A program made the position numbers and the translations under genes. The notes beneath the pieces are model-generated. The model did no database searches. It was given only the letters and a program-made list of their open reading frames with translations, and was not told the DNA's origin. This document shows, one piece after another, positions 15,150-36,975 of a stretch of DNA of 64,000 bases. The stretch covers positions 186,001 to 250,000 of the forward strand of contig NZ_CP064356.1 in NCBI RefSeq assembly GCF_018141545.1, read 5' to 3'. Every line of letters starts with the position of its first letter. Position 1 is the first letter of the stretch. The stretch comes from Miltoncostaea oceani (GTDB taxonomy: Bacteria; Actinomycetota; Thermoleophilia; Miltoncostaeales; Miltoncostaeaceae).

Positions 15150-15787
15150 TGGAGGTCGACGCCTGGGTGGCCGTGGCCGCCGGCGTGCCGGGCCTGATCG
15201 CCCTCGGCGTCTGCGTCTTCCTGTGGATCGGCCTGCGCCGTGCCCGGGCGGCGCAGCAGGTGCTGCTCCCCGACGGGGCGTCGGCGGGCCTCATCGACCG
15301 CCAGGCGACGCTGCAGCGGGCGATGACGCGCCTCGAGGGCGGGTTGAGCGACCTGCAGAGCCTGGTGGAGCGGCAGGGGGAGTTCACGGAGGCGAACCTC
15401 CGTACCGCCCTGCGCTTCCAGGGGATGGTCCGGTACGACGCGTACCGCGACATGGGCGGCAACCAGTCGTGGTCGATCGCCCTGCTCGACGGCAACCGGT
15501 CGGGTGCGATCGTGACGTGCCTGCACGCCCGTGACCACGCCCGGGTGTACCTGAAGGAGATGAACGCGGGCGAGCCGGGGCAGCGCCTGTCCCCCGAGGA
15601 GGAGCGGGCGGTGGCCCTGGCGTTCGGCGCCCCGCCGCGTCCCGCCCGCGGGTCGGGGACGGCCCCGCCGTACCCGGGTCCGCCGGCGGCGGCGCCGTTG
15701 CCGGAGGCCACCGATGACGACGGCGACGACCAGTCGACGGGGGAGATCCCGACCGATCCGGAGCGCCCGGCCGGGCCCGCGGCGTGA
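15149..15787 (+). CDS. DUF4446 family membrane protein
   Basis: A 212-residue protein with one N-terminal membrane span (about residues 5-30), a coiled-coil-like helix (about 48-85) and the DUF4446 core: FQGMVRYDAYRDMGGNQSW, SIALLDGN, and a strand ending in YLKEMNAGEPGQRLSPEEE. The C-terminal 60 residues are Pro/Asp-rich and disordered. DUF4446 proteins are widespread in Gram-positive bacteria with no known activity. The gene overlaps both neighbours: TGATG with the gene upstream and GTGA with pheA downstream. Confidence 0.85.
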   Translation: MEVDAWVAVAAGVPGLIALGVCVFLWIGLRRARAAQQVLLPDGASAGLIDRQATLQRAMTRLEGGLSDLQSLVERQGEFTEANLRTALRFQGMVRYDAYRDMGGNQSWSIALLDGNRSGAIVTCLHARDHARVYLKEMNAGEPGQRLSPEEERAVALAFGAPPRPARGSGTAPPYPGPPAAAPLPEATDDDGDDQSTGEIPTDPERPAGPAA

Positions 15788-16635
15788 GGGTCGGGTACCT
15801 GGGGCCACCCGGGACCTTCTGCGAGGAGGCCCTGCTGTCGCTGCTCGGCCGCGACGTCGAGGAGGTCCCCTTCCCGACGGTGGTCGACTGCTTCCGTGCG
15901 GTCCGCGAGGGCGACGTGCCCGAGGCCCTCGTGCCGATCGAGAACACGATCGAGGGGTCGGTGAACCAGACCCTCGACCAGCTCGCCGCCGGTGACGGCC
16001 TGCGCATCCGCGGGGAGGTGGTGCTGCCGATCCGCCACCACCTGATCGCCCGCCGCCGGATCGACCCGGCCTCGCTGGAGCGCGTGCTGTCCCATCCGCA
16101 CGCGACGGCGCAGTGCCAGGGGTGGCTGCGGTCGACGGCGCCGCACGCGACGATCGTGGCGACGAACTCCACCGCCGACGCGGTCCGGATCGTGGGCGAG
16201 GGGGGCGACGACGACGGCCACTCCGCCGCGATCGGCACCCTGCGCGCCGCGGAGCTGTACGGCTGCGAGGTGCTCGCGACGGACATCGCCGACACCCACG
16301 ACAACTCGACGCGCTTCGTCCTGCTGGGGACGGAGCCGGTGGAGGCGGTCGGTCCGGGGCGCTTCCGCACGTCGATCGTCTGCGGGCTGGAGCGGGACCG
16401 CCCGGGTGCGCTCCTCGCGATCCTCCAGGAGTTCGCGATGCGCGCGGTGAACCTGACGCGCCTGGAGAGCCGGCCGACGAAGACCGGCCTGGGGTCGTAC
16501 ATCTTCTTCATCGACATCGAGGGGAGCCGCGACCGGGACCTGCCGGTGGCGTCGGCGATCCAGGCCCTCGAGGATCAACGTGTCGCGGATGTCACGGTGC
16601 TGGGGTCCTACCCCGTCGGCGGCGCGCCCGGCTAG
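15784..16635 (+). CDS. pheA: Prephenate dehydratase
   Basis: A 283-residue monofunctional enzyme that converts prephenate to phenylpyruvate in phenylalanine synthesis. The catalytic periplasmic-binding-like fold covers residues 1-185, with YLGPPGTFCEEAL at the start, PIENTIEGSVNQTLD, SHPHATAQC and the catalytic threonine motif NSTRF. Residues about 198-280 form an ACT domain (RPGALLAILQEF, LTRLESRP), which binds phenylalanine for feedback control in this family. There is no chorismate mutase domain. GTG 15784 overlaps the stop of the DUF4446 gene, so it probably relies on upstream transcription. Confidence 0.95.
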   Translation: MRVGYLGPPGTFCEEALLSLLGRDVEEVPFPTVVDCFRAVREGDVPEALVPIENTIEGSVNQTLDQLAAGDGLRIRGEVVLPIRHHLIARRRIDPASLERVLSHPHATAQCQGWLRSTAPHATIVATNSTADAVRIVGEGGDDDGHSAAIGTLRAAELYGCEVLATDIADTHDNSTRFVLLGTEPVEAVGPGRFRTSIVCGLERDRPGALLAILQEFAMRAVNLTRLESRPTKTGLGSYIFFIDIEGSRDRDLPVASAIQALEDQRVADVTVLGSYPVGGAPG

Positions 16636-16720
16636 AATCCCCACGGGCTCAGGGTGAGAGACGGCAGCCTCCGTGACGCTTCATGCCGGTCGCTCACCCA
16701 CGCGGACGTCCGAGGAGCCA

Positions 16721-17224
16721 ATGGCGCAGCAGGTCCTCGTCCTGAACGCCACCTACGAGCCGATCAACGTGTGCTCGCTGCAGCGGGCGGTCGTGCTGGT
16801 GCTGAAGAACAAGGCCGAGGTGCTGGAGCGCGCCGCCCGGTCGTTGCGCAGCGCGACCCAGAGCCACGTGTACCCCCTCGTGATCCGGCTCGTCTACTTC
16901 GTGCGGGTGCCGCGCCACGAGTCGCGGAAGATCTCGCGCCGCGCCGTCTTCGCCCGCGACGGCTACGAGTGCCAGTACTGCGGCTCGGCGTCGCACCTGA
17001 CGATGGACCACGTCATCCCGCGGTCCCGCGGCGGCCGGTCGAGCTGGGACAACGTCGTCACCGCGTGCGCGCCGTGCAACCTGCGCAAGGGCAACCGCCT
17101 GCCGGGTGAGATCGACATGCGTCCCCGGACGAACCCGCGGGCCCCACGGCCCGACGTGTTCATCTCCGTCGCCGCCCCCCGGCAACCGAACGCCTGGCTG
17201 CCGTACCTGGCGAAGGCCTCCTAG
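16721..17224 (+). CDS. HNH endonuclease
   Basis: A 167-residue protein starting at ATG 16721, chosen because a GAGGAG ribosome site lies five bases upstream; an ATG 16 codons earlier in the same frame lacks one. The N-terminal half begins VLVLNATYEPINVCS, typical of a widespread actinobacterial HNH family. The nuclease core has two CxxC zinc knuckles (CQYCG and CAPCN) around DHVIPRSRGG, where His is the general base, and the NLRKG end. This family is chromosomal and its target is unknown; it is not a typical mobile intron nuclease. Confidence 0.85.
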   Translation: MAQQVLVLNATYEPINVCSLQRAVVLVLKNKAEVLERAARSLRSATQSHVYPLVIRLVYFVRVPRHESRKISRRAVFARDGYECQYCGSASHLTMDHVIPRSRGGRSSWDNVVTACAPCNLRKGNRLPGEIDMRPRTNPRAPRPDVFISVAAPRQPNAWLPYLAKAS

Positions 17225-19064: not shown

Positions 19065-19137
19065 GCCCCCGTAGCTCAGTGGATAGAGCACAGGTTTCCT
19101 AAACCTGGTGTCGCAAGTTCGATTCTTGCCGGGGGCA
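19065..19137 (+). tRNA. tRNA-Arg (anticodon CCT)
   Basis: A complete cloverleaf: acceptor strands GCCCCCG and CGGGGGC, D arm GCTC/GAGC, anticodon stem CAGGT/ACCTG with loop TTCCTAA (anticodon CCT at 19098-19100), T arm GCAAG/CTTGC with loop TTCGATT, and discriminator A. No CCA is encoded. tRNA-Arg(CCT) genes are common integration sites for mobile elements. Everything to its right has accessory character, so this gene probably marks the left attachment site. I found no second copy of its 3' end within the window. Confidence 0.95.
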
Positions 19138-19334
19138 TCGCGAGATCGCGCTCAGAAAGGGCTATCTCATGCCGTTCGAGCCGGTCCGCGGCGGGTGCGG
19201 AGAAGCATCTGGATACGTCCCGGCGCGGCCGATCAGCTGCTCAGACGTTGCGGGAGACGTTGCGGGGGATCGTGGGGGTGGACCAGCCCGCGGCACCGAC
19301 TACCTCAGACGGTCACGGCGCTGGCCTCAACGCT

Positions 19335-19387
19335 GCACCTCCGCCATTGCAAGGCGGAGGCCGTCGGTTCGATCCCGTCATCCTCCA
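19335..19387 (+). other. 3' half of a tRNA-Ala (TGC), attachment-site remnant
   Basis: The anticodon arm (CCGCC/GGCGG around loop ATTGCAA, anticodon TGC), variable loop, T loop TTCGATC and acceptor 3' strand ATCCTCC with discriminator A are all present. No 5' acceptor strand or D arm precedes them. The T stem has one T-T mismatch (GTCGG with CCGTC). This is the portion that integrating elements usually carry in their attachment site to restore a tRNA gene, so an element targeting tRNA-Ala probably contributed to this region. Confidence 0.6.
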
Positions 19388-19444
19388 CTGCTCGGAAGCC
19401 CCGAGATCGTCTGTATGTAGGGCGGTCTCGGTTCTCGCTGAGCC

Positions 19445-19590
19445 CGATTGCCCAGGCGGCACGAGGCGTCACCAAGTGCCCGGAAATGCCGCCGGTGGTC
19501 CTGAGATGGTCCTGAAGCCGCTGTCCAATGCCGGCAGTCGTCAGTGCTCGGCCCTGCCGGTTGAGCAACGGGCTCGACCACCACCGGAGA
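19445..19590 (-). pseudogene. Possible tyrosine recombinase C-terminal relic
   Basis: The minus strand encodes a stretch reading LLNRQGRALTTAGIGQRLQ, then HLVTPR and WAIGL. This resembles the region before and around the second active-site arginine box of tyrosine integrases (RG..LT..G, then H.VTPH.LR..WA). The essential His-x-x-Arg box is not intact and the frame soon runs into the antisense of the tRNA-Ala half. If the match is right, it is the ruined 3' end of an integrase gene next to its attachment site. The similarity is short, so confidence is low. Confidence 0.25.
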
Positions 19591-19774
19591 AATCGGCGCC
19601 GCTCGCCTTTTCGGTGGCCGCGCCGTCGCCGCGTCCGGTTCATGAACGACGCGACCCGGGGTGCCAGCCCCGGGTCGCTCCCTACGAAAGTTCACTGCCT
19701 GTGGTCCCAGAGTACCCCACGCGTCAGATCGCCTCGAGCGATCCAGGCGGCGACAGCACAGCGACACCCAGGCC

Positions 19775-20428
19775 GTGACCGACGTCGCCTACGCGATCGA
19801 GGTGGAGGCCCTTGCCAGCGAGCGCTTTGCCGCCGTCGGCGGGAGCGTGCTGGCCGCTCTGGCCGAGTCGGGCCTGAGCTCTCGGCGGGTCGCGAACGTG
19901 ATCAGCTGGTTCATCGTCGCCCAGCTTGCCCTCGGCCCCTGGCGCTCGCGCGGCGAGGTCCGACCTGCTGGCCTCGCGCAGAGGATGGGCGTCTCGCGCT
20001 GGACGGAGTGGCGCGCGCGGCGCGACGCGGTACTGGCCGGGGTCGTGCGCGAGTGGTCACTGCCCGACCCGGAGGCGCGCGGCTACGGGCGCGGGGCCGT
20101 GCGAGTGGTGGAACTCGCCTTCGTGCGCACCCGCGCGGTGACCCAGAAGGTGGCCACCCAGAAGGCAGAGCGCGCGAGCCGCGCCGAGCGCCGCCGTCAG
20201 GAGCGCGAGCGCACCAGGGGCCAGCGCGTCTGCGCCGATCCGGCGGACCCGGCACGTGTCCCCGTCATCACGTCCGAGCCCCCGATGCCACCGCCGGCCG
20301 CTCCTCTGACGCTCGGCGATCTGCGATCACCCGCCGCCACGCGGATCTGGGCTCTGATCGAACGTGTTCAGCACGGCGGTCGCGCTGGCGGCGAGGACGT
20401 GACCAGGCCCCGCCCACCGCCTGCGTAG
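19775..20428 (+). CDS. Hypothetical DNA-binding-like protein of the mobile element
   Basis: A 217-residue protein read from GTG 19775. The frame is open further upstream, but that part lacks protein-like character. The N-terminal half is helical and contains a helix-turn-helix-like segment (GLAQRMGVSRWTEWRARRD) after SWFIVAQLALGPW. The middle is very basic and helical (KAERASRAERRRQERER), and the C terminus is Pro-rich. This could be an element-encoded regulator or a replication accessory protein. It is followed 28 bases later by a strong terminator hairpin, so it appears to be transcribed alone. Confidence 0.55.
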   Translation: MTDVAYAIEVEALASERFAAVGGSVLAALAESGLSSRRVANVISWFIVAQLALGPWRSRGEVRPAGLAQRMGVSRWTEWRARRDAVLAGVVREWSLPDPEARGYGRGAVRVVELAFVRTRAVTQKVATQKAERASRAERRRQERERTRGQRVCADPADPARVPVITSEPPMPPPAAPLTLGDLRSPAATRIWALIERVQHGGRAGGEDVTRPRPPPA

Positions 20429-22677: not shown

Positions 22678-22823
22678 GCGACCAAGACAAGGCGAGTGGC
22701 CTCGTCGCTGACCCTACGTCGTGGGCCTACACGCAGCGCATGGTGGATGCCGGCATCCGGCCGAGCCGCGGGCGCCCCGGCATCGTCCCCAACAACGTCC
22801 TCGCCGAGTTTGAGCGACCTTAA
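22674..22823 (+). CDS. Small Lsr2-C-terminus-like DNA-binding protein
   Basis: A 49-residue protein read from TTG 22674, whose TTGA overlaps the previous stop. Its second half (WAYTQRMVDAGI, then SRGRPGIVPNNVLAEFE) follows the pattern of the DNA-binding C-terminal domain of Lsr2: a W-containing helix, a gly turn, an RGR AT-hook-like clip and an IP-x-x-V-x-x-xF/Y helix. The Lsr2 N-terminal oligomerisation domain is absent. Lsr2-like tails occur in actinobacterial phages and defence genes. The rare TTG start makes the call tentative, but the coupling with the two genes upstream supports it. It converges with the helicase gene. Confidence 0.45.
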   Translation: MSDQDKASGLVADPTSWAYTQRMVDAGIRPSRGRPGIVPNNVLAEFERP

Positions 22824-25800
22824 GGCGACACCAGGATCTTCGGTTGGGCGACGGACAAGACGGCGTCCCGAAAGACGCTCAAGAGCTGAACTATCTGTAG
22901 CGCGCTCGTCGCCCCGACTCCGAGGTCGAGGTCGAGCTGCGCCCTGCTTAGGCCGGGTTGAGCAATGCCAATTCCACCGACGACGGAGGGCTTACGGCGG
23001 GTCAGCGACATTGTCGCCCAACGAGTGTGGAGACCAAGTAGGACCTCAAGCTGCCGACGGCTTCCTTCGACGAGAATCGCCTCCGGGTGGCTCCGCCCCG
23101 ATAGCCTTGCGGCGAGCTGATCCCATAGTTGGCGGTCCGTCGGCCATCGCCTGCTCTTGATGGCCTGGGCGGTCACGACCTCAAAATCCGTGACGCGGAC
23201 GCTGGGTGACGCACCGCCAGCAAATTTGGCATGCCAGAGATCGACGGCGACCTGTCCCGTCGGCAGCGTCTCGATTACGATGTAGTCGGCGATCTCGCCA
23301 GCTCCGTCGTTCGAGAGGATCCACCGCCGCCGCCCACGTGGAGCCTGCTCTCGGAGGAATACCTCAAGGGATTCGTGGACGGAAGCGCCCGCGCCCTTTG
23401 CCGTCGCCTTCGCCCTCGTTTCTGCGGTGATGTCGACCCCCTGCCAGTCACGTGTCAAGATGAGTTCACTCGGCAGCGACCTCATGACACCGCTGGGCGG
23501 GAACAGCTCGCGACCCCGAACCGTCGATCCATCCAAGAAGAAGACCGTCGGCGGCCGATCAGTGAGCAAGTCCGAGAGGAGGGTCGGATTGCTGTGACCC
23601 CGGCGAACCGTGATCTCAGGCTGCGTAGGTGTCACTGTACCGAAACAGTCGATCTCCCCAGTCCAGATAACCGTTTCACCGCTTGGGCTCGGGGCAATCG
23701 CCGCCAGAGGAAGCCGATCGTCGCCGGAGGGTGGTGGCGCTCCTCTATGAAGGGCGGCGTCACCGCCGACCATATCTATGAGATCGAGCGATCCGTGCTC
23801 ATCGAGGCTCCATTCGGCACCGAGCAGGGCATAGTCAAGAGCGACTGCGAGAACTTTGGCCTGCGGCCAGACAAGGAGTGAGCGTCCTCGATTGATTTGA
23901 GGAAGTAGCGGCCCAGAGGGCGCAATGGGCGGATACCAATACCGAGCGGCTAGGTCGGACGCAAAGTCCTCGTACATTCGAAGTGGCGTGTATCTCGTTT
24001 CCCAGTACTTACTCTTGCCCGTTGACACCCCGGCGGTGAAGGCACCGGCATCGCCTGACACCTGCACCATCGCGTGCCCAAGCGCTGATTGGGCGGTGTC
24101 GGAGTCCCGGAGGCCGCTCTCGATCGAACTTCCCGCGAACATCCTGTAGCTCGGTGATCCGCGAGTCGGCCCGTACGTGCTCCGCACTCCCACCGACGAC
24201 ACGGAGATGCGCGGGAGGCTGTCGAAAGCCAGCTGGACGCGCCGTGCGTCTCCGGGCCTGAGAGCGTCGTCTCCACCGATGGCGGACACGAGTTTCCTCT
24301 GTGCGCTGCTTCGGGCGGTGTTCACGAGTACGAGGTCGGGTTGATCGACCTGGGGGGCGCGTCTGTAGGTTAGAAGATGCAAGTCGTACTCGACGGAGTC
24401 GAGTGCGTCACCACTGTTCCATCGTGGGCGAACCGGTTGACCGGTGACCATGAGAAGTGTCGTGTGATCCGGGTTCGTACCCGAGTAAAGAATCCGCTGT
24501 CCGGCAAAGAGTTCGCCCACCGCAAGCTCCTCGGGAACCTGACCCTCGAGGAAGCTCGGTACCCAAGGGACATCGGCGCGGACCTCAAGAATCCGAGCGC
24601 GCCGTAGTGGGTGAATGTGAGCGACTTCTACCTGCCCTGTCGAAGGAGCGAACAGCCGCGCGTAGCCTCTGTCCTTTAGGTCATCTTCAACGAAAGCGTC
24701 GATGATCCCAGGGAGGACAACGGCCCAATCGCTGTCCTCGGCGTAGAGGCTTCGGACCACACCCTGTAGATATGGGTATACGTCGGCGTCTCTTGCCGTC
24801 ACGAGAGTAGATCGCTGAGGATACCGCGGATCGACCCGCGCGAGTCGGCCGATGAGCTGCGCGGTGGGCTCAAGCGACTTGTGTTTGTCGTGATAGGCGG
24901 CTATTCGGAGGCTCGGGAGGTCGAACCCCTCTACGAGCATTCCAACCATGACCACGCCTCGGAGGTCGCCCTTCCGAAGTCCCTCGATCACGGCGCGTTG
25001 TCGCGCTCGCCCTAGCCCACTGTGGAGGACGGGTACCTCGTGCCCAGCCGCCTTGTAGAGCGCGGCAAGCTCGTGCGCTCGCCTCTTCGTGCCGGCTCGG
25101 ATCAGCATCTGGCTTGTCTTGTGCTCGGGACGCTTCAGCACGGCGTCGACCGCCTCAACGATGAGGCGGTCGATCTCGTCCTTCGCCGCTCCCTCGTCGA
25201 TTTCGATCACGCGGGGGTCCACTGGCTGATAGAGACGGTCGTCGATCGCTTGGCGGAGCGGGTAGTAGTAGACGAGTTTTCCCGGAAGCCGCTTCCGGTC
25301 ACGCCGTTGAGGCGTGGCGGTTAGGAGAAGATGCTGAGCCTCGAAGTGGCTGAGGATCGCCGACCAGGTGGCGGCCGGCGCGTGGTGCGCCTCATCCACA
25401 ATGACGAGATCAAAAAGGTCTGGCGGTGGCGGAGAGTCCACATAGTGAACCGGACTTACGGAGGCCGGGATGCCGACCACGACGTCAGCCTCTAAAAGCC
25501 GTTTCCAGTCTGTGCTCCGACCCTCAACCTCCAGAACGTGGGGTTGGGTGACCCCCTCCTCACGCAGCGCCCCAATTCTGCGGAGGACATCTTGTGTCTT
25601 GAACTGCTCCGCTGTCTGTCTACGTAGCTCCCTCGTCGGCACCACGACAAGCACTCGAGACGCCCCGGCGACAAAGGGGGCCGCTAGAGCGACGGCTGTC
25701 TTCCCGACCCCAGTCGGTACCGAGATCAGCGGGGAGTCCTCGCCTGCGAGGCTCCACTGGGAGAGCGCTGCACCGAGTGCAGCGAGCTGTGGCGGTCGCC

Positions 25801-25867
25801 ACGCGGGGGCACCGACCCTGCGAAAGAGCTGGAATCCTCTTTCGTCTGACCTGTAGTAGCCCGCCAT
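22820..25867 (-). CDS. DEAH-family helicase with C-terminal nuclease-like domain
   Basis: A protein of about 1015 residues from ATG 25867. Residues 1-450 are a superfamily 2 helicase: Walker A GVGKT, PTRELRRQTAEQ, DEAHH box, TATP (motif III), and motif VI QLIGRLARVDPR. A long middle region has no recognised fold. The last 200 residues contain DYIVIE, then VAVDLWHAKFAGG and RVTDFEVVTAQAIKSRRW. This order (D, then D-x-x-x-x-K, then a QA-x-KS-x-x-W helix) resembles PD-(D/E)xK nuclease domains fused to defence helicases. It is likely an antiviral translocase-nuclease. Codon use is less GC-biased than in the core genes, in keeping with transfer. Confidence 0.75.
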   Translation of the reverse strand: MAGYYRSDERGFQLFRRVGAPAWRPPQLAALGAALSQWSLAGEDSPLISVPTGVGKTAVALAAPFVAGASRVLVVVPTRELRRQTAEQFKTQDVLRRIGALREEGVTQPHVLEVEGRSTDWKRLLEADVVVGIPASVSPVHYVDSPPPPDLFDLVIVDEAHHAPAATWSAILSHFEAQHLLLTATPQRRDRKRLPGKLVYYYPLRQAIDDRLYQPVDPRVIEIDEGAAKDEIDRLIVEAVDAVLKRPEHKTSQMLIRAGTKRRAHELAALYKAAGHEVPVLHSGLGRARQRAVIEGLRKGDLRGVVMVGMLVEGFDLPSLRIAAYHDKHKSLEPTAQLIGRLARVDPRYPQRSTLVTARDADVYPYLQGVVRSLYAEDSDWAVVLPGIIDAFVEDDLKDRGYARLFAPSTGQVEVAHIHPLRRARILEVRADVPWVPSFLEGQVPEELAVGELFAGQRILYSGTNPDHTTLLMVTGQPVRPRWNSGDALDSVEYDLHLLTYRRAPQVDQPDLVLVNTARSSAQRKLVSAIGGDDALRPGDARRVQLAFDSLPRISVSSVGVRSTYGPTRGSPSYRMFAGSSIESGLRDSDTAQSALGHAMVQVSGDAGAFTAGVSTGKSKYWETRYTPLRMYEDFASDLAARYWYPPIAPSGPLLPQINRGRSLLVWPQAKVLAVALDYALLGAEWSLDEHGSLDLIDMVGGDAALHRGAPPPSGDDRLPLAAIAPSPSGETVIWTGEIDCFGTVTPTQPEITVRRGHSNPTLLSDLLTDRPPTVFFLDGSTVRGRELFPPSGVMRSLPSELILTRDWQGVDITAETRAKATAKGAGASVHESLEVFLREQAPRGRRRWILSNDGAGEIADYIVIETLPTGQVAVDLWHAKFAGGASPSVRVTDFEVVTAQAIKSRRWPTDRQLWDQLAARLSGRSHPEAILVEGSRRQLEVLLGLHTRWATMSLTRRKPSVVGGIGIAQPGLSRAQLDLDLGVGATSALQIVQLLSVFRDAVLSVAQPKILVSP

Positions 25868-26158
25868 CAGCTCGCAGCCACTCGGCGGCTCGCGCGCGTG
25901 GGGCAAATAGAGGACGTGCGCCTGGGTGCGGCCGTGGATCGGCAGGGGGGCAGGTAGTCGAGTCGCTCCGTGCTCATATGCCCCACGATGGCCGGTGCGT
26001 CGGACAACAGAAAGCATCGGGTGCTCCGCGCGGGCCCCCGTTTTCGACGAAGCGCACGAAACCTCCCTAACTTCGGAGCGGGTCGTTGCGAGTGCTGGTG
26101 CCGAGACGAGTAGACGCCTGCGTCCGACCCGGCTCTCAGGCATCGGAAGCAGAGCGCG

Positions 26159-27357
26159 GTGGCGTCGGCGATACTGCCGGCCGTGAGTCGCCACCGTTCT
26201 GGTCGCAGCTACATCAACGCCTACGAAGCCGTGCGTCGCGCCAGTGACCACGGATTTCTGGAGCAAGCGGTCGTGACAGCGGGCGCTCGGATCGTCTACT
26301 CGAGCGGCCCCAGCGTCGCCCCGCTCTTCCTGACGATCGAGCACCCCGACGGCGCTCGAGAGGGCGTGGTCGTCTACGCGTTCCACGCAAATCGGCGGGT
26401 GACGCGGAACCGACCCGCTGACGAGCATAGGTGTCAGGTTCGATATGGGAACGTGAACGACGATGCCTGGCGGCTCGCCGAGCATCGGGTCGCGTTCGAC
26501 CCCGCGGCTGCCGACGTGACCTTGGTCGTTGCCGTGGAGCCCGAGGCCGAGATCATCGTGGCGCTCGACCCCCTCCTCTACGACCCCCTCCCGCTCGGGA
26601 TCTCGGTCTTCTGGAAGGATGCCGAGGTTGCCCTGGCGCAGGCCACAGGCTGGCATGCCTGGGAGCGGGACAACATCACGGGCGCCAACCGGTCAGCCCG
26701 CAGCGCCACCCTCGGGGTCGAGGCGCTTCTCGCCGTCGCTCCCGAGCGCATCCTGGAGCTGATCCGCTTCGAGCGCACCGCCCAGGCCCTTCGTCTCGAC
26801 CCGGCCCTTCGCCTTCGGTCTGCGCAGGACTTCCCGGCGACGGCTGGCGGTCCCATCGGGCTCCACGCGCTCGAGCGCGAGTATCAGCTGCCCGCGAGGG
26901 AGATCCTCGCCATCGTCGGCGAGCGGGCGCGCCTTGCGATGGCCGTCCGGGGCGGCGTCGCGGAGCATCACCTGGGGCTGCTCCTTGCGGGACACCCCGA
27001 GGTCGCCGGGGCTGAGATGGGGCTCCAAGAAGGGCCGCCCGACTACATCGTGACCTGCACGACGGTAGGTCCACGACGATCGAGTGCAAGAACGCCTCGC
27101 CCAAGCTCTACGCCGATGGGACGCCGAAGGTCGAGGTTCAGAAGACCAGGACCTCGAAGGCTGACCCCGCTAGTCGGCTCTACGAGCCTTCGGCCTTCGA
27201 CATCCTCGCGGCCTGCATGTACGGGCCGACCGGTCGCTGGGAGTTCAAGTTCCGCCGCTCCGTCGATCTTCGCGCTCACGAGGACCATCCCGGGAGGATC
27301 GCACCGCTGCAGCGCATCACCGATGAATGGGCGAGTGACCTCGCGGACGTCCTCTAG
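26159..27357 (+). pseudogene. PD-(D/E)xK restriction-type endonuclease, frameshifted in its active site
   Basis: The first frame, from GTG 26159 (GTG 26183 is an alternative), codes about 300 residues to PPDYIVTCT. A one-base phase change near 27062 is then needed to continue with GRSTTIECKNASPK and run to TAG 27357. PD and ECK together form the PD-(D/E)xK catalytic core, so the shift lies between the two halves of the active site. Joined, the protein would be about 399 residues. It ends four bases into the cytosine methyltransferase gene, which converges on it, the usual set-up of a type II restriction partner. As read here it would be cut off before ECK and be inactive. Confidence 0.7.
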
Positions 27358-28439
27358 GCTCGAGCGAGCACGCGCTCAGCCTCAAGCGGCAGTCCCTCGG
27401 AGACGCGGTCGAGCCAGGCAAGCGATGCGCGAACGGACAATGCGACGGCCTTCGCGAGCCGCGGCGGGACGGCGTTGCCGATCTGGCGGAACTGGGCGAC
27501 CTGAGGTCCGCGGAACTGCCAGCTTGGATCGAAGGTCTGGAGCGCGGCCGCCTCCTGAACAGTCAGGCGCCTGAGGCGATCCGGGGCGACGTCGATGGGG
27601 TCTTCACCGGCCAGGAGGCGAGCGTGGTAGCCGCGCACCCAGGGCTCGGCACCGTGGGCCAGCTCCTCCTGGTCGATGATGGGCGTCGCGTTGCCGCCCA
27701 TCGACGCCGGGAGCGTCTTCGCCGGGCCGCCCAGGTCGAGCGGGCGACCTGAGCCGTTGAAAAGGAGGCTCCCGTGGTGCGCGCGCGGCCTCATCACCGG
27801 CCGGCTCGCGGGAATGACCCGGGCCGCGCAGAGTGCGTCGTTGCCCGGCTCTCCAAAGGCGGGCAGGCCCCGGAGGGCCTCCCGCACGCTGGGCGGCGAC
27901 CCCTTCGACGTGGGCAGGGGGCAGAGAGGCGCCATCCCCCGCGTTCCGACGAGGAACATCCGCTCGCGAGTCTGCGGGACCCCGAAGTCGGCGGCGTTCA
28001 GGAGGAATAGCTCGACCTGGTAGCCGAGCGCGCGCGCGGTGCGCCGAAGGTCTTCGCGGACCGCTGACCACCGATCGCTCACGGCAAGTGCCTTCACGTT
28101 CTCCAAGACAAAGGCCCTGGGGGAGAATCGAGCGACGAGGTCCATGAAGGCATGGACGTGGGTGCTCCGAGGGTCCTCCGGGTCCATCTTCCCGATCACC
28201 GAGAACCCCTGGCACGGTGGGCCGCCGATGATCACATCGACCCCAGAGGCTCCGAGCGGGACGACTCCTGGAAGCTCTCCGTGGACCACATGGGCTCCGA
28301 GGTTCGCGCGGTAGGTCTCCACGGCCCAGCGATCGGACTCAACGGCTGCGACGATCTCGAACCCCGCGTCGCGGAAGCCGCAGTCGAGGCCGCCGGCTCC
28401 CGAGTAGAGCGAGAGGACGGTGGGGGCGGTCGCGGTCAC
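27354..28439 (-). CDS. DNA (cytosine-5-)-methyltransferase
   Basis: A 361-residue C5 methyltransferase. Motif I (LSLYSGAGGLDCGF) binds S-adenosylmethionine; motif IV GGPPCQGFS has the catalytic Cys76; motif VI LENV is at 112-115; motif VIII PQTRER is at 155-160; motif X (RQIGNAVPP) lies near the end. The variable target-recognition region is between about 185 and 290, so the site cannot be read off. GTG 28439 is the start. It is divergent from vsr and converges with the frameshifted nuclease. It should protect against the restriction activity encoded alongside, and possibly against host enzymes. Confidence 0.93.
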   Translation of the reverse strand: MTATAPTVLSLYSGAGGLDCGFRDAGFEIVAAVESDRWAVETYRANLGAHVVHGELPGVVPLGASGVDVIIGGPPCQGFSVIGKMDPEDPRSTHVHAFMDLVARFSPRAFVLENVKALAVSDRWSAVREDLRRTARALGYQVELFLLNAADFGVPQTRERMFLVGTRGMAPLCPLPTSKGSPPSVREALRGLPAFGEPGNDALCAARVIPASRPVMRPRAHHGSLLFNGSGRPLDLGGPAKTLPASMGGNATPIIDQEELAHGAEPWVRGYHARLLAGEDPIDVAPDRLRRLTVQEAAALQTFDPSWQFRGPQVAQFRQIGNAVPPRLAKAVALSVRASLAWLDRVSEGLPLEAERVLARA

Positions 28440-28523
28440 GGGGCCGATTATGGACCGTGGCCACGGACGTCGTCGTCACGGGACGTGACGACTTGCGCCC
28501 CAGATTGCTCCAGGATCAGGCAC

Positions 28524-29006
28524 ATGAGCGCCAGCCCCTACCCGTTGCCCTCGAGCGACGCCGTCAGCGTCCGGATGCGCGCCAATCGGCGCCGAGACAC
28601 CCGCCCGGAGACCGCCGTTCGTTCCGCGCTGCACGGGCGCGGCCTTCGCTACCGCGTCGACTTGCCGATCCAACTGCCCGGGCGTCGTCCCGTCCGGCCC
28701 GACATCGTCTTCACGCACGCACGCGTCTGCATCTTCGTGGATGGTTGCTTCTGGCACTGCTGCCCCATCCACGGGGTCGAGCCGGCCAGGAACGCCGACT
28801 ACTGGGGCCCGAAGCTCGCTCGCAACGTCGCCCGCGACAGGGCGGTGGATGCCGCCTTGGCGGATGATGGTTGGACGGTCCTTCGAATCTGGGAGCACGA
28901 CGACCCAGGCAGCGCAGCCGCCGTCATTGCCGACCTTGTGAGCGAGATGGCCCATCCGGCGACCGGCACACGATCCCACCGGACCCCGAGCGACGCGGCA
29001 GGCTAG
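28524..29006 (+). CDS. vsr: Very short patch repair endonuclease
   Basis: A 160-residue Vsr nuclease, which nicks next to T:G mismatches made when 5-methylcytosine deaminates. The family signature is complete: RRRDTRPETAVRSALH, VRPDIVF with the catalytic aspartate, FVDGCFWHCCPIHG with zinc ligands, and YWGPKLARNVARDR, followed by LRIWEHD. ATG 28524 is the start. It is transcribed away from the C5 methyltransferase across an 84-base gap, which must hold both promoters. The pairing with a cytosine-5 methyltransferase is the standard context. Confidence 0.92.
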   Translation: MSASPYPLPSSDAVSVRMRANRRRDTRPETAVRSALHGRGLRYRVDLPIQLPGRRPVRPDIVFTHARVCIFVDGCFWHCCPIHGVEPARNADYWGPKLARNVARDRAVDAALADDGWTVLRIWEHDDPGSAAAVIADLVSEMAHPATGTRSHRTPSDAAG

Positions 29007-29983
29007 GAGAGCGCCCAGTCGTAGCGGCCGGCATAGTGGCTGTACCTCTGGGCGAACATGGACGCCAGAGGTCGCAGTTCGGGCTCGAGGGGCTCGGCCA
29101 GGGTCCGCCTCGTGTCGTCGACGAAGCTCGCATGAGCGCGGTTCAGTCCCTTGGCATCGCGAATGGACGGGTGTAGGCGGATCTGCCTGGTCTCGGGATC
29201 CACCCAAGCCAGATGGGCATCAAGTGCAGCGTGGTGGTTCGGGCAGAGCGCCACGCCGTTCCATGCCTGGTCCTGGGATCCCTCGGCAGCAGCGGGGAAG
29301 ATGTGCGCGCTCTCGACGAGGCCGAGGCCCAGTTCGCACATCGCGCATCGGCCCGAGTAGGCGCGGAGAACCGCTCGCCTGAAGCGGACGCAGCGCACGA
29401 GCATCGTCGTGACCCGGCGCTTGCGCTCTTCGGCCACGTCGGCAGCGGCGGTGACGACCTCGACCGCGCCGACGCGCACTTCGTCAGAGCGCAGCGGCAC
29501 GTCGAGATGCTCGGCCGCGACGAAGGCCGCGAACAGCGCTGGGTGGAAGTACGTCAGTAGCTCACCCGACGTGCTCTCGCGCGTCTCCCACCCAGCGGTC
29601 GCAGCGGTCCGAAGGGCATCGAGGGGCTGGAACACCGAGAAGCGGGTCGCCTTGCCCTCCCGAAGGCGAGCGTCCGCGGCCACGATGACCGGCGCTGGTA
29701 CGTCCATGAGCGGATCGTCCGCCCAAACGCCGATCAGCAGCGGGAGTCGACCGGTCGGGACGACGATGGGCCGATCCTTGCCGGGGTTCTCGAATCGCCG
29801 CTCGCTGGGGTCCTTTCCCCGGTGGGATCGAATGACGGTGCTGAGCCACAGCGCAACCTGGACGGACGTGTCCGGGAGGTGCACGACGCCGAGCGCCGGC
29901 CAACGCTGCCCCGAATCCTCGATCTTCAGGACCGAAGAGCCGACCAACGACTGAAGCCGCGCGGTGACGTTCTCTCGACCCAT
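29003..29983 (-). CDS. HNH restriction-type endonuclease
   Basis: A 326-residue protein. The C-terminal third is an HNH nuclease: CAMC and CPNHH zinc and catalytic ligands around ESAHIFPAA and NGVALCPNHHAALD. The N-terminal two thirds is a domain of unknown family that may recognise DNA, and it starts GRENVTARLQSLVG. HNH proteins of this size next to a C5 methyltransferase and vsr are often the cognate restriction enzyme, so it may be the working nuclease of this system while the PD-(D/E)xK gene is broken. It overlaps the vsr stop by four bases and converges with it. Confidence 0.75.
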   Translation of the reverse strand: MGRENVTARLQSLVGSSVLKIEDSGQRWPALGVVHLPDTSVQVALWLSTVIRSHRGKDPSERRFENPGKDRPIVVPTGRLPLLIGVWADDPLMDVPAPVIVAADARLREGKATRFSVFQPLDALRTAATAGWETRESTSGELLTYFHPALFAAFVAAEHLDVPLRSDEVRVGAVEVVTAAADVAEERKRRVTTMLVRCVRFRRAVLRAYSGRCAMCELGLGLVESAHIFPAAAEGSQDQAWNGVALCPNHHAALDAHLAWVDPETRQIRLHPSIRDAKGLNRAHASFVDDTRRTLAEPLEPELRPLASMFAQRYSHYAGRYDWALS

Positions 29984-30880: not shown

Positions 30881-31283
30881 CCTCAACACCGTCGGGCTCG
30901 TCGGTCGACTGACCCGCGATCCCGAGCTTCGCTACACGGCCGCCGGTGAGGCGGTCTGCGCGATGCGCCTGGCCGTCGCCACGCGCACGCGCACCGGGGA
31001 GGACTGGGAGGACCGGCCGAACTTCTTCGACGTCTCGGTCTTCGGCCGAAACGGCGAGGCCGCTGCCGAGCACCTGACCAAGGGGCGGCGCATCGGCGTC
31101 GCCGGTCGCCTGGCCTGGCGCGAGTGGCAGGCCGACGACGGCTCGCGCCGTGAGGCGGTCCAGGTGATCGCGTCATCGGTGCAGTACCTGGACGCCCCGC
31201 GCCCCGCTGAGACCGAGGCCGTGCCGGTCGGCGGGGGCGCGAACGGAAAGGGGGCGCCTGGTGGCGACGACGCATCCCTCTGA
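30870..31283 (+). CDS. ssb: Single-stranded DNA-binding protein
   Basis: A 137-residue SSB with one OB fold: NTVGLVGRLTRDPELRYTAAG at the start (quoted in part), a central WEDRPNFFDVSVFGRNGE strand pair, and LTKGRRIGVAGRLAWREW. The C-terminal tail is short and Gly/Asp-rich and ends DDASL, rather than the DDDIPF that recruits host repair proteins. Element-encoded SSBs protect single strands during conjugative transfer. It is the first main gene of a five-gene overlapping operon ending with parB. Confidence 0.9.
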   Translation: MPADLNTVGLVGRLTRDPELRYTAAGEAVCAMRLAVATRTRTGEDWEDRPNFFDVSVFGRNGEAAAEHLTKGRRIGVAGRLAWREWQADDGSRREAVQVIASSVQYLDAPRPAETEAVPVGGGANGKGAPGGDDASL

Positions 31284-31875: not shown

Positions 31876-32180
31876 ACCGGCCGGGAGACGACACAAGCGG
31901 CCTTCGTGCCGCCGTCCGCGCGGCGCTCGAGGCCGCCGACCTCGAGCCCGCCGTGCGGGCGCTCCTCGAGCTGCGCTTCCCCGCCGAGGGGCCGGGCGCC
32001 AGCCTCGACGAGACAGGCGCCGCCCTGTCGATGAGCCCCGCGATGGTCGCCCACATCGAGTTCGCCGCGCTCTGCGCCGTCGCCGCCCGAGGGCGGCCCG
32101 GCGCGAGCGCCGCCATCCAGACCGCGAGCGCAGCCGCCACGACGGCCGGCCCCTCGCACGCCGAGAGGAAGAGCGCATGA
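31872..32180 (+). CDS. Small sigma-region-4-like helix-turn-helix protein
   Basis: A 102-residue protein from GTG 31872, overlapping the previous stop (GTGA). The core (EPAVRALLELRFP, then ASLDETGAALSMSPAMVAHIE) follows the sigma region 4 pattern: a helix ending in R-F/Y-x, then a helix-turn-helix. No region 2 is present. The C terminus is Ala-rich and disordered. It could act as a small transcription factor or a partner of ParB in the same operon. Confidence 0.6.
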   Translation: MNRPGDDTSGLRAAVRAALEAADLEPAVRALLELRFPAEGPGASLDETGAALSMSPAMVAHIEFAALCAVAARGRPGASAAIQTASAAATTAGPSHAERKSA

Positions 32181-33793
32181 CCACCGAGACCAAGGACGCC
32201 ACGACGAGCACGCTCGCCGTACTCGACATCGAGGCGATCACCACCCGCGAAGGATGGAATCCGCGCACCCACGACGACGAGACGGAGCATCAGGCGCTGA
32301 CCGCCTCGGTGCGCGCCCAGGGCATCCTGCAGCCGCTCCTGGTCGAGCGCACCGACGTCGGCCCGGTCCTGATCGACGGCCACCGCCGCCTCGCCGCGGC
32401 GCGCGCGGCGGGGCTCACCGCCGTGCCGGTGATCGAGCGCACGGGGGATGAGGGGGAGGCGGCGCAGCTTGCCGCCGCCTTGGCCGCCAACCTGCGCCGC
32501 AGCGGCCTGGATCCGATCGAGGAGGCGCGCGCCTACGCCCGCGCCACGGAAGCCGGTTGGCCGCAACGGCGCATCGCGGAGGCGGTCGGCTGCTCGCGCC
32601 GCCACGTCTCGGAGCGCCTTCGCCTGCTGCGCCTGCCCGAGTCGGTCACCGAGGCGATCTCCGATGGCGTCCTGACGCTTGCCAGCGTCCCGCGCGTCGA
32701 GGCCGTGGCCGCCGTGTCGGCCTCCGTCGCGGAAGGCCTCGTGGCCGCCCTGCGCGACGGAGCGGCGACGTCGGCCGATCTCACCGAGCGGCCCGACGTC
32801 GTCCTCTCCGAGCTCGCGGAGCATCGCCCGGAGGGTCTGGTCCTCGCAACCCTGCCCGGCTACCTCGACCTCTCCCACCTGCTCGACCCGGAGGCCGACG
32901 CCGAGTTGTCGGCCCGCGCTGAGGCGGCCGGGGTGAGTGGTGTCCACCTGACCGTCGAGGACCTCGACGCCGCGCGCGCTTACGGCTGCCTGATCGAGTT
33001 CACCGAGCGCGAGGACTCCTACTGGCGACGCGGTTGGGTCGCGGACTCCCCCTGGCTCACCGACCGGGCGCGCCTGCACATCGAGCGCGTCGAGGACCGC
33101 GCCGCAGAGCGCGAGCGTGAGGACGCCGTTCGGCGTGCCGCCGACGACCAGGCGCGCGCCGAGCACGCCGCCCGCGACGCCGAGGCGCGCGGTGAGGATC
33201 CGCAGGCCGCAGCCGCCTCGGTGGCCGGCGAGTCCGACGGCGAGCGCCGGGCGCGCGAGCGCGCTGAGGCCGCCGAGGATCGGCGCAGCGCGCGCCTCGC
33301 GAACCTCGACCTCGGCCGTCGGGCGCTCCTGGCCTACGACGAGCCGCAGGCGATCACGACCGAGATGGCGCGTGCCCTGGCGCTCGCCGCCCTGCACCAC
33401 CACCAGGCCGAGGCCGCGCGCGGCCTGGTGCTCTGCCACGAGCGCCTCCAGACCACTGAGACGAGAACCACGAAGGCCGGAGCGATGAGCGAGAAGGTCA
33501 GCTACGCCGAGCCCGACGAGGCCGAGCGGGCGCTCAGCGAGTGGATCGAGGGCGCACGCACGCCCGAGCAGGTCATCGGGCGCGCCCTCCAGGCGCTGGC
33601 GCTCGGGTGGTTCGCCGACCAGGCGGCGCTACCTCGGAGCGAGCGTCGGCCGGGCGTCGTGCCGGGGCGCTGGGGCGGTGGCATAGCCGCCGGCCTGCCG
33701 GCCCTCGCGGCCGCCCTTGCGCGCCCGGTGCTGCCCGAGCGCATCGCCGCGCAGCTGCGCGAGTCCCACGACCCCGAGGCGCTCGCCGCGTAG
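32177..33793 (+). CDS. ParB-like partition or nuclease-family protein
   Basis: A 538-residue protein with an N-terminal ParB domain (GWNPRTHDD, the GILQPLLVER strand and LIDGHRRLAAARAAG, the CTP/DNA-binding GxRR-type box here GHRR) and a helix-turn-helix (WPQRRIAEAVGCSRRHVSERL). A long charged helical region follows and ends near 500. The usual partner ParA is not seen in the window. Element-borne ParB proteins without ParA may stabilise the excised circle or regulate transfer. It is the last gene of the ssb operon; the ATGA overlap shows coupling. Confidence 0.88.
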   Translation: MTTETKDATTSTLAVLDIEAITTREGWNPRTHDDETEHQALTASVRAQGILQPLLVERTDVGPVLIDGHRRLAAARAAGLTAVPVIERTGDEGEAAQLAAALAANLRRSGLDPIEEARAYARATEAGWPQRRIAEAVGCSRRHVSERLRLLRLPESVTEAISDGVLTLASVPRVEAVAAVSASVAEGLVAALRDGAATSADLTERPDVVLSELAEHRPEGLVLATLPGYLDLSHLLDPEADAELSARAEAAGVSGVHLTVEDLDAARAYGCLIEFTEREDSYWRRGWVADSPWLTDRARLHIERVEDRAAEREREDAVRRAADDQARAEHAARDAEARGEDPQAAAASVAGESDGERRARERAEAAEDRRSARLANLDLGRRALLAYDEPQAITTEMARALALAALHHHQAEAARGLVLCHERLQTTETRTTKAGAMSEKVSYAEPDEAERALSEWIEGARTPEQVIGRALQALALGWFADQAALPRSERRPGVVPGRWGGGIAAGLPALAAALARPVLPERIAAQLRESHDPEALAA

Positions 33794-34128
33794 GGGCGCG
33801 ACACCGACCGGGACGGACGCGGCGCGGCTCTTGGGTCGCGCGCGGCGGGCACCCGTCCCGGTCTTCGCTCCGTTCCGCGCTGGCCCGAGCGCCCGCCGGG
33901 CTATCGGGGCCCGTCGGGCTGCGCCCGTCGAATCGGACAGACGAAGCACACGTCGAAGGCAGGCTCGCAGCCACCAGAGCCGCACACGCCCACGCTGCTC
34001 GACTCCCCGAGGTCCCTTCCGGCGTAAGGCGACCCGGACGGCACCGCCCTGAATCAGTTCGCCTCGTGTTCTCAACAGACCGGCAAAGATGGCGGGCGCA
34101 CTTGCATCATGTGATGCTCGACTCCGAG
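33794..34128. other. Intergenic region with inverted repeats, candidate oriT
   Basis: This 335-base gap lies directly upstream of the relaxase gene. An 11-base perfect inverted repeat, GACCGGGACGG at 33806-33816 and CCGTCCCGGTC at 33853-33863, encloses 36 bases. Further right, GCCCGCCGGGC-like and CCCGTCGGGC-like palindromes occur near 33890-33925. MobF relaxases nick beside such repeats, often near their own genes. No nick sequence could be assigned. The gap may also hold the relaxase promoter. Confidence 0.4.
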
Positions 34129-36975
34129 ATGCTCACGATCCGCGCCGCCAAGGGGCCCGATTACTACGAGCGTGCCGAGTTCGCCCGCGACGACTACTAC
34201 GAGGAGCGCGGGCAGCTGCGGGGCAGCTGGGAGGGGACGGGCGCCGAGGTGCTGGGGCTCAGCGGCGCACCCGGCGACGGCGCCCTCGGGGAGCTGCTGG
34301 AGGGGCGCGATCCGAGCACCGGGACGGAGCTCGCGGGCACCGGCCAGCGCCGCGGAGGGAACGTCGCCTTCGATCTCACCTTCACCGCGCCGAAGAGCGT
34401 GAGCGTGCTCGCGGCTGTCGGCGACGAGTCGATTCGGCAGGCCGTCCTCGCAGCCCAAGCGGACGGCGCGCGGGCGGGGCTCGACTACCTCGAGCGCCGT
34501 GCCTGCTTCGTTCGGCGCGGCCGCAACGGAGTCACGGTGCTGCCGGGCCAGGGCTTCGCCGGGGCCATGTACTTGCACGAGATGGCGCGCTCCGGCGACC
34601 CCCACGTTCACGCGCACGTGGTGATCGCCAACCGGGTGAAGGGACCCGACGGTCGCTGGAGCGCACCCGACATGCGTCCCGTCTTCGCCGAGGCCAAGAC
34701 CGCGGGCACGATCGCCGAGGCCGCGATGCGCGATGCGCTCAGCCGATCTCTCGGCGTCGGGTGGGGGCCGCTGCGCAACGGGATCGCCGAGCTCGCCGGG
34801 GTGCCCGCGAGGGTCTGCGAGCACTTCTCGCAGCGTCACGCCGAGATCGTCGAGGAGGCGACCGCGCGCGGGTACGTGAGCGCCCGCGGCATCGATGTCA
34901 TCCAGCGCGAGACCCGTGATCGAAAGCGCGTCGTCTCGCGCGAGCGTGCCGCGAGCCAATGGCGCGCCCGCGCGGCCGAGCACGGCTTCGGCGCACGGGA
35001 GCTCGCCGCTCTGATCGGCCGCTCGCGAGGCGTGGATGCCCAGGAGCAGCGGGCCGCCCTCGAGGCGTGTCGATCGAAGATGCTCGGGCCGGCAGGCCTC
35101 ACGCAGCGCAGCGCCCACTTCACCCGTCGTGAGGTGATCCAGGCGCTTGCCGAAGCTCACCCGGGCGGAGCCGCTGCGTGTGTCCTCGAGGCCCTGGCGG
35201 ACCAGTTCATCGCGACCTCGTGCGTGTCGCTTCTCGCCGCCCGCGTAGAGGCGAATCGTGGACACCAGGAGGCCCTCTTCTCAACGCCCGACATGCTTCG
35301 CTGCGAGGCTCGCTTGCTCGCGACGGCCTCAGGCGTGGACCCGCGCGGTGGGATCGTCGCCGCTCGGAGCGCAGTCGACGGAGCGATCAGCGCCCGGCCG
35401 ACGCTCGGCTCGGATCAGGCGGCAGCGGTGCGCCATCTCTGCTTGGGGGACGCTCGCGTGCGCGTCATGGAGGCAGGGGCGGGGACCGGCAAGACCTTCG
35501 CGCTCGAGGCGGTGCGCGAGGCCTACGAGAGCTCGCACATCCCGGTCATCGGTGTCGCCTGGCAGGGCCAAGCCGCCGACGTTCTCCAGCGCGACGCCGG
35601 CATCCAGTCGGAGACGGCGGCACTCCTCCTGGACCGCCTCGCTCGTGGGGACACGGACGCCATTCCGGCCGGTGCGGTGATCGTCTGTGACGAGGCCTCG
35701 ATGATGCCGACGCGCGCACTGGAGCGGCTCGCGAGCGAGGCGGCTCAGCGCTGCGCCCGACTCATCCTGGTCGGAGATCGGGCTCAGCTTCCGGCCATCG
35801 ACGCCGCGGGTGGCTTCGCTGCGCTCGCTGATCGACTCGGCTCCGCCGAGCTGACCGAGAACCGGCGCCAGCGCACGGACTTACAACGTCAGGTCGCCGA
35901 GCGACTCGCCGACGGACGCCCGGCCGATGCGCTCGCGCTCCTCGCTGACCATGACCGCCTCCACGCGTTCGACGACGGCCGCGAAGCGCGCGCGGCGCTG
36001 GTCGCGGCGTGGGCTCAGGCCTCGCTCGCTGATCCCGCACGCGGGCTGATCCTGGCTCACGACCGTCACGAGGTCGCCACCCTCAATCTGATGGCGCGGC
36101 GCGCACTGGACGATGCCGGCCTGCTCGGGCCCTCGAGGCTGACGGCGTCCGGTCGCGAGTGGGCCGCCGGCGATCGGGTCGTCTGCCGGCGCAACGACTA
36201 CCGGGTGGGCGTCCGCAACGGTACGCGCGGAACGGTCGTCCAGATCGACTCCGCGAGCAAGGCCTTGCTCGTGCGCGTCGACGACGCAGGGGTGGTGCGG
36301 CTGCCCGAGGGCTACCTCGATGACGTCCAGTACGGGTACGCCCTTACCGGGCACATCAGCCAAGGGGCCACGGTCGATCGAACCTTCCTTTCGGCGACGC
36401 CGGAACGTGGAGGCAGGGAGTGGGCGTATGTGGCTTCGAGCCGCCAGCGTGTCGATCTCACGCTCTTCGCCGTGCACCACGAGCCCGAGCAGATGGAGTC
36501 CGCACTCGCTCGTTCGTGGGCGCGCTCGGATGCGAAACGACTAGCCCTCGACCACGTCGAGGGTCCGTCCCGCTCGACGGCCGTGGATGCTGCCCGAAGT
36601 GCCCTCGATGCCGAACTTCCGGAAAGGAGGGCTGCAAGGTTGCGCGATCTTTCGGAGCGTCGGGAGCAGGCCCGGGGAAGGGCAGGGGCGACGTCTGGCG
36701 AGGAAGCCGCCGGTGACCGCCTGGAGGCCCAGATCCTTAGCGCTGAACTACGCCAGCTGGCGCACGCGGGAACCGCGTGGACGGTGCTTTCGGAGATCGC
36801 CCATCCTTCTCCTCGGGCAGAGCACCTGTTCGGCCCACGGCCCACCACTACGCTCGACCGTCAAGCATGGGAGGCCGAGGTGACGCGCGCGGTGGCCGCC
36901 CACCCTGGGCGCGACCCGGAGCGCGCGATCGCTGCCGAACAGAAGGATGCCTCCGGCTCCTACAGAGAACGCTGA
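34129..36975 (+). CDS. MobF (TrwC/TraI-like) conjugative relaxase-helicase
   Basis: A 948-residue relaxase that nicks oriT and unwinds the transferred strand. The N-terminal TrwC domain has candidate nucleophile tyrosines at 12-13 and 23-24, the FTAPKSVSVL strand, and the HUH metal triad in PHVHAHVV (His159, 161, 163). From about residue 420 there is a RecD-like superfamily 1 helicase: Walker A GAGTGKT, a DEAS motif II, GDRAQLPAID, and a C-terminal YALTGHISQGAT before SRQRVDLTLF. ATG 34129 was chosen because MLTIRAAKG matches typical MobF N termini; ATG 34114 is possible. This gene is the strongest sign that the element is conjugative. Confidence 0.93.
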   Translation: MLTIRAAKGPDYYERAEFARDDYYEERGQLRGSWEGTGAEVLGLSGAPGDGALGELLEGRDPSTGTELAGTGQRRGGNVAFDLTFTAPKSVSVLAAVGDESIRQAVLAAQADGARAGLDYLERRACFVRRGRNGVTVLPGQGFAGAMYLHEMARSGDPHVHAHVVIANRVKGPDGRWSAPDMRPVFAEAKTAGTIAEAAMRDALSRSLGVGWGPLRNGIAELAGVPARVCEHFSQRHAEIVEEATARGYVSARGIDVIQRETRDRKRVVSRERAASQWRARAAEHGFGARELAALIGRSRGVDAQEQRAALEACRSKMLGPAGLTQRSAHFTRREVIQALAEAHPGGAAACVLEALADQFIATSCVSLLAARVEANRGHQEALFSTPDMLRCEARLLATASGVDPRGGIVAARSAVDGAISARPTLGSDQAAAVRHLCLGDARVRVMEAGAGTGKTFALEAVREAYESSHIPVIGVAWQGQAADVLQRDAGIQSETAALLLDRLARGDTDAIPAGAVIVCDEASMMPTRALERLASEAAQRCARLILVGDRAQLPAIDAAGGFAALADRLGSAELTENRRQRTDLQRQVAERLADGRPADALALLADHDRLHAFDDGREARAALVAAWAQASLADPARGLILAHDRHEVATLNLMARRALDDAGLLGPSRLTASGREWAAGDRVVCRRNDYRVGVRNGTRGTVVQIDSASKALLVRVDDAGVVRLPEGYLDDVQYGYALTGHISQGATVDRTFLSATPERGGREWAYVASSRQRVDLTLFAVHHEPEQMESALARSWARSDAKRLALDHVEGPSRSTAVDAARSALDAELPERRAARLRDLSERREQARGRAGATSGEEAAGDRLEAQILSAELRQLAHAGTAWTVLSEIAHPSPRAEHLFGPRPTTTLDRQAWEAEVTRAVAAHPGRDPERAIAAEQKDASGSYRER

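Follow-up and report, generated by a model that had tools for sequence, protein, structure and literature searches.

An integrative and conjugative element (ICE) of Miltoncostaea oceani has at its left end, in our preferred reading, two stacked attachment sites, and integrase/att modules would have been exchanged at the inner one, a tRNA-Ala core; we give this explanation a probability of roughly 0.7. Comparison with two related elements, one at the same tRNA-Arg(CCT) site in another genus of the same family (G010) and one at tRNA-Thr(TGT) (contig L090), suggests that the integration machinery was swapped exactly at this inner site. The two sites, the conserved core and the break in the mosaic that falls there are read directly from the DNA.

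An element lodged in tRNA-Arg(CCT)

The window, meaning the whole 64,000-nucleotide stretch analysed, covers C1:186001-250000 of a three-contig, 4.54 Mb genome. ARAGORN calls a single tRNA in it, an intact tRNA-Arg(CCT) (19065-19137, + strand), which an earlier note made from the sequence alone had correctly placed at the border of the element. The last 46 bases of this tRNA plus one T form the outer attachment core attL (19092-19138, + strand), of which an identical 47-bp copy (47/47), attR, is found beyond the window at C1:262261-262307. The distance between attL and attR gives a size of about 57.2 kb for the element, which restores an intact tRNA-Arg(CCT) gene on the attL side. The integrase gene (L009:12961-14247) stops 13 bp short of attR and codes for a 428-residue protein with a full Phage_integrase domain (PF00589, E 4.9e-25) and a match to PHROG_1 (integrase, E 2.8e-60). 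The earlier note had proposed to search this right side for a tRNA-Arg repeat and an integrase, and both are there. Since the integrase and attR lie 57 kb away, the window shows the left end of the element; that no integrase is intact at this end, as the note had remarked, is true but ordinary, the single Phage_integrase match within the element being at the far right (C1:261552-262121). A small ORF between a glucosaminidase-like gene and the integrase gene, without match in Pfam, is presumably xis-like, judging by its position.

The part of the element inside the window (19139-64000) has genes for a helicase (22820-26656), a C5 DNA methylase (27354-28439), SSB (30963-31283), ParB (32177-33793), a TrwC relaxase (34114-36975, E 5.4e-71), the coupling protein T4CP (T4SS-DNA_transf, 58609-60312, E 2.3e-36) and a TraG-like ATPase (P-loop_TraG, 60752-61981, E 6.6e-8). 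The relaxase, coupling protein, TraG-like ATPase, ParB and SSB led us to call the element an ICE. It combines a recombinase gene near one end, flanking attL and attR, and genes for relaxase, coupling protein and secretion ATPase. It also has the anatomy of a tRNA-targeting genomic island: the intact tRNA gene is followed downstream by a cognate 3' fragment, oriented like the gene itself, and an integrase lies inside the island. From its gene content it is a predicted self-transferable ICE lodged in tRNA-Arg(CCT). The C5 DNA methylase gene adjoins that of an HNH/MTaX1 protein (together 27354-29983), probably forming an ICE-borne restriction-modification system.

Two stacked attachment sites

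Arm-type direct repeats of the outer site (ACGTTGCGGGAG twice, period 12; 19243-19269, + strand) lie about 111 bp past the tRNA-Arg end. The integrase gene has the repeat as well, within its 3' end and 57 bp before attR, and the outer arm repeats are conserved at 27/29 positions in G010. A GCATCTGGATACGTC-like sequence between the tRNA-Arg and the outer arms (19224-19239), similar in G010 and L090, is possibly an excisionase site.

About 200 bases inside the outer site sits the inner core (19338-19387, + strand), the tRNA-Ala(TGC) 3' half that the earlier note had recognised. It spans the anticodon stem to the discriminator base and is identical at 47/49 bases to the intact tRNA-Ala(TGC) gene of the same genome (C1:831447-831520, E 2e-15); the conserved stretch around it runs from 19337 to 19390. 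Around the anticodon loop the 5' stem of the core is lengthened, giving an 8-bp stem CCTCCGCC/GGCGGAGG (CCTCCGCC ATTGCAA GGCGGAGG), and the native gene differs from it by GCGCCGCC before the loop. Exact copies of this extended-stem, attP-form core occur in only 2/399 genomes of the class, the source genome and G010; 21 others match it at two mismatches, all with the GCGCCGCC of the native gene.

Inner arm-type direct repeats (TGGTCCTGA twice, period 11; 19496-19515, + strand) lie 108 bp past the tRNA-Ala core. At the homologous position G010 and L090 have TTGGTCACG twice, which agrees with the window at 13/25 letters, and despite these differing letters each element retains a perfect 11-bp-period repeat. 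Further inward, a terminator-like inverted repeat GCGACCCGGGG..CCCCGGGTCGC (19651-19678) recurs at left ends of related elements. The core with its right (P') arm repeats corresponds to that part of a bipartite lambda-type attP for a tRNA-Ala integrase. The left (P) arm of the tRNA-Ala core is absent from all three stacked elements: TGGTCCTGA was not found with up to 2 mismatches in 19138-19336 or with up to 1 mismatch in the right end, and the TTGGTCACG-like matches of the left-arm search are single ones with 2 mismatches only. The outer arms were considered as left arms of the tRNA-Ala core and rejected, their repeat sequence and period (12 versus 11 bp) being different. We read the tRNA-Ala half, on its sequence features, as the candidate attachment site of a former integrase of a different type and not as random debris.

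The same stack in other elements

The gene that follows the hairpin (19775-20428, + strand, GTG start) codes for a 217-residue protein conserved in related elements, with no Pfam or PHROG match. It is present at six places in 4/399 class genomes, and scanning genome contigs yielded four loci, of which L090 was new. The tRNA-Ala core is found at 3/7 of these left ends, those of the window, G010 and L090, always in the order outer tRNA, repeats TTGCGGGAGACGTTGCGGG, tRNA-Ala core, 11-bp-period repeat, hairpin and 217-residue gene. The spacing is 70, 70 and 69 bp from outer arms to core and 108, 107 and 107 bp from core to inner arms in the window, G010 and L090, respectively. Three further left ends abut what we take, by eye, to be a tRNA-Ser-like 3' half. 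In the last one (L030:680-1453, G020 C105) the left-end gene and its hairpin directly adjoin the 5' end of a gene that we assume to be ettA-like, which suggests that this element targets the start of a gene. The contig L090 comes from a MAG that bears the label Bauldia (an alphaproteobacterium); it may be mis-binned, since its nearest kin are elements of this family.

The 42 genomes of the source organism's family contain 21 tRNA-Arg(CCT) places, 20 of which were viewed. The tRNA-Ala half occurs at only two of these, the ones with this type of element, and the finding that the earlier note had named as contrary to its proposal, the same flank in a relative with an empty site, was not seen among the 20. 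A clean empty tRNA-Arg site was not found there either. In G019 the left-neighbour genes (15784-16635 and 16673-17224) precede the tRNA-Arg(CCT), and 0/7 right-flank proteins matched in that region; the first right-flank gene matches G021 beside a different, tRNA-Ser-like sequence. Stacking as a general trait of the integrase clade was rejected: two relatives at tRNA-Met (L054, L055) have right-side repeats 104-105 bp after the tRNA, with no T-loop motif match in 900 bp for L055 and, for L054, one weak match unlike a tRNA half.

Mosaic relatedness at the tRNA-Ala core

The three stacked left ends known, of which those of G010 and L090 are compared here with the window, change their closest partner at the core. 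Identities outside the core, in the core and inside it are 160/199, 52/55 and 207/376 for window and G010; 103/194, 52/55 and 198/375 for window and L090; and 108/194, 55/55 and 336/402 for G010 and L090. The closest pair is thus window and G010 outside the core, and G010 and L090 inside it. Informative sites join window and G010 at 60 positions and G010 and L090 at 15 outside the core, versus 26 and 136 inside; this switch of pairing has a Fisher p of 1.4e-21, for sites that are not independent and with the window and L090 sites (11 outside, 17 inside) left out. The best single breakpoint falls at 19336-19346, within the 5' side of the anticodon stem and the first base of the loop; near-identity of all three sequences between 19337 and 19390 allows no finer placement of the crossover than within the core. 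The tree of the left-end protein, in which 1/4 inner branches reached the strict threshold, groups G010 and L090 (86% identity, support 92/90) with the protein of the window apart (71%). Mosaic relatedness along the element, compared here over left ends, is shared with hybrid ICEs of the SXT/R391 type.

The core is the best of 622 windows of 55 columns in every pairwise comparison. Against flank identities of 0.54-0.59, its 52/55 identity between window and L090 corresponds to a binomial tail of 3e-11 to 2e-9; between window and G010, with the outer flank (0.79) as reference, the tail is only 0.0014. Such conservation would result equally from selection and from a core renewed again and again by tRNA genes of the host.

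Module boundaries and integrase relatives

A second ICE of the source genome (C1 about 3085-3188 kb; L029, L125) lies beside a tRNA-Ser-like half and has a different integrase. Its right-end genes share 76.7% identity over 2392 bp with those of the window ICE, and the shared stretch ends precisely where the glucosaminidase-like gene does, at its stop codon (L009:12689), beyond which the integrase differs. Relatives of the tRNA-Arg integrase were found in four places at 55-59% amino acid identity, and a fifth, split in two pieces, at 45-49%. The exact 12-bp-period repeat, with nearly the same sequence, is kept in 3/5 of them (G019, G009 C117 and G001), and the 3' ends of these relatives run into halves of other tRNAs (by eye, Met and Phe), so this clade changes its target tRNA while retaining its arms. 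G020 contains the right end of a tRNA-Arg element, whose integrase tail is 92% identical over 225 bp.

Islands at tRNA-Ala genes

The tRNA-Ala gene of the source genome carries a 2.6 kb island closed by a second half (L010:7447-10116, that is C1:831447-834116). Repeats with a period of 11 bp lie 98 bp after the tRNA and again 46 bp before the second half. Their geometry is that of the inner site, which is why we call the latter a tRNA-Ala attachment site. No integrase was found inside this island, which may depend on the integrase of another element. Among 21 distinct tRNA-Ala cores (16 full genes and 5 halves), downstream repeats of 10-11-bp period follow five, namely the three stacked halves, the 2.6 kb island and the tRNA-Ala of G008; the other 14 full genes have none. 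A rough motif scan for integrases at the tRNA-Ala loci examined gave nothing convincing. Another island, of 5.5 kb (L033:3788-9369, G020 C187), lies between a tRNA-Ala and a second tRNA-Ala half and by eye contains two-component and ABC-transporter genes, with no integrase.

None of the four tRNA-Ala-type cores of the genome is a right-end partner of the inner core. An ancestral version of the element with an intact tRNA-Ala integrase was not found in the 42 family genomes, the 399 class genomes or viral contigs, and a plasmid search gave 52 records with pieces over the tRNA half only, all of them below 80% query coverage. The searches found no living tRNA-Ala integrase that goes with these inner arms. 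This counts against the explanation that we prefer, as do the missing left arm, the inner arm letters that differ between the window and the other two elements, and the small number (three) of stacked left ends.

Origin of the inner site

The inner half could be the dead scar of a single old replacement of the integrase, with no present role. The lack of a tRNA-Ala integrase in the element, the missing left arm of the core and the drift of the inner arm letters all speak for a scar, which we nevertheless judge unlikely given that the core is 52/55 identical to L090 next to an outer flank at 103/194 and an inner flank at 198/375, and that both inner repeat units changed together with the perfect 11-bp period kept, as expected of maintained sites. 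A separate suggestion, made in part by the earlier note, is that an integrase gene on the minus strand, now degraded and overlapping its own att site, has the half as its 3' end. The minus-strand ORF 19305-19643 does pass through the half, it has related translations in G010 (tblastn, 50% identity over 68 residues) and L090 (43% over 58), and arm repeats can occur inside integrase 3' ends, as in the tRNA-Arg integrase. Yet part of this ORF is the antisense of the tRNA-Ala half, and its tblastn matches are not independent evidence for a gene because they include the conserved tRNA part. Moreover, neither of the two minus-strand ORFs matches an integrase in Pfam or any PHROG (E<=1 for both), and the region past the arms, 62/154 identical to G010, leads into a conserved gene on the opposite strand. 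The integrase relic thus finds no support in these searches, and we hold this origin to be quite improbable.

That the 250 bp beside the tRNA-Arg are the remnant of a separate element next to the ICE would account for two different tRNA cores close together. Tandem accretion is nonetheless very improbable, as both cores lie within one matched attL/attR pair with one integrase and three elements, at different sites, carry this stack with them. A tandem array of islands agrees poorly with fragments of two different tRNAs and one integrase, and a tripartite (multipartite) ICE with one Phage_integrase match inside the element and no tRNA-Ala partner at the right end. The earlier note had left the choice between a change of site and the meeting of two elements. 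The change of site finds support in refined form, with a shared backbone and a varying integrase/att module; the meeting survives as a mosaic joined at the tRNA-Ala core, and not as a second integrated element.

The exchange of integrase/att modules at the tRNA-Ala core is therefore the explanation that we retain. The outer site would be the one in use, the anatomy indicating that the far-right tyrosine integrase, with its 12-bp-period arms flanking the core, placed the element. The inner site would be the attP core and 11-bp-period right arm of a different integrase, since lost, that targeted tRNA-Ala(TGC), presumably the earlier target of the element. In the simplest history, an incoming module made of the xis-like ORF, integrase, outer attP and outer arm would then have been added to the old element by a join at the tRNA-Ala core, where modules of this kind may have been exchanged more than once. 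Recombination at the core would have made the swap, be it of the site-specific or the homologous kind, and tandem arrays are one conceivable setting for it. A likely route would have two related ICEs in tandem at tRNA-Ala and then recombining, as in the SXT/R391 hybrids (PMC2786100); the 55 shared bases may also have sufficed for homologous recombination. Only tentatively do we consider that the inner site is still a working second attachment site, recombined by integrases of other elements at the host tRNA-Ala. If so, ICEs would gather in arrays at tRNA-Ala, where crossover at the core would let them swap entire integrase/att modules, and the lineage would switch tRNA targets through a built-in cassette junction.

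Relation to known systems

The element resembles the tRNA-gene islands of the Islander collection (PMC4383910) in having a tRNA gene, a displaced 3' fragment and a tyrosine integrase; crossover in the anticodon loop is one known subsite there. It differs from them by its second fragment, from a non-cognate tRNA. Like the tripartite ICEMcSym1271 of Mesorhizobium it has more than one type of integrase attachment site on one ICE, but that ICE has three integrases and three att sets (PMC5882170), whereas the window ICE has one integrase, one pair and one unpaired inner core. Secondary sites and tandem arrays are documented for SGI1 (PMC2297512) and composite islands for Shewanella (PMC8978831). 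Under Thermoleophilia and "integrative and conjugative" the literature gave a soil-community study only, as far as its title and the start of its abstract tell. No description of a conserved internal non-cognate tRNA core as an exchange junction was recognised in a literature search that left subscription journals mostly outside, and to our knowledge this use of such a core as swap junction is new. The signature to seek elsewhere consists of non-cognate tRNA halves that are stacked and have arm repeats of their own.

The mosaic recalls the SXT/R391 family, where recombination between related ICEs in one cell produces mosaic ICEs; these share one common integration site (PMC2786100), whereas elements of the window type have differing target tRNAs and join at an inner tRNA core. 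Exchange of modules and change of specificity are already known in ICEs: the streptococcal ones have related conjugation backbones with unrelated integrases at different sites, attributed to multiple module exchanges, and the data mostly leave the exact exchange event unshown (PMC4701971). A change of integration site is usually visible only afterwards, as unrelated integrases on related backbones. Compared with the streptococcal ICEs as described there (PMC4701971), the window element keeps what we read as its old attachment core, at the very point where the relatedness breaks. The former site would still be there to mark the join, offering a concrete and testable route for target switching.
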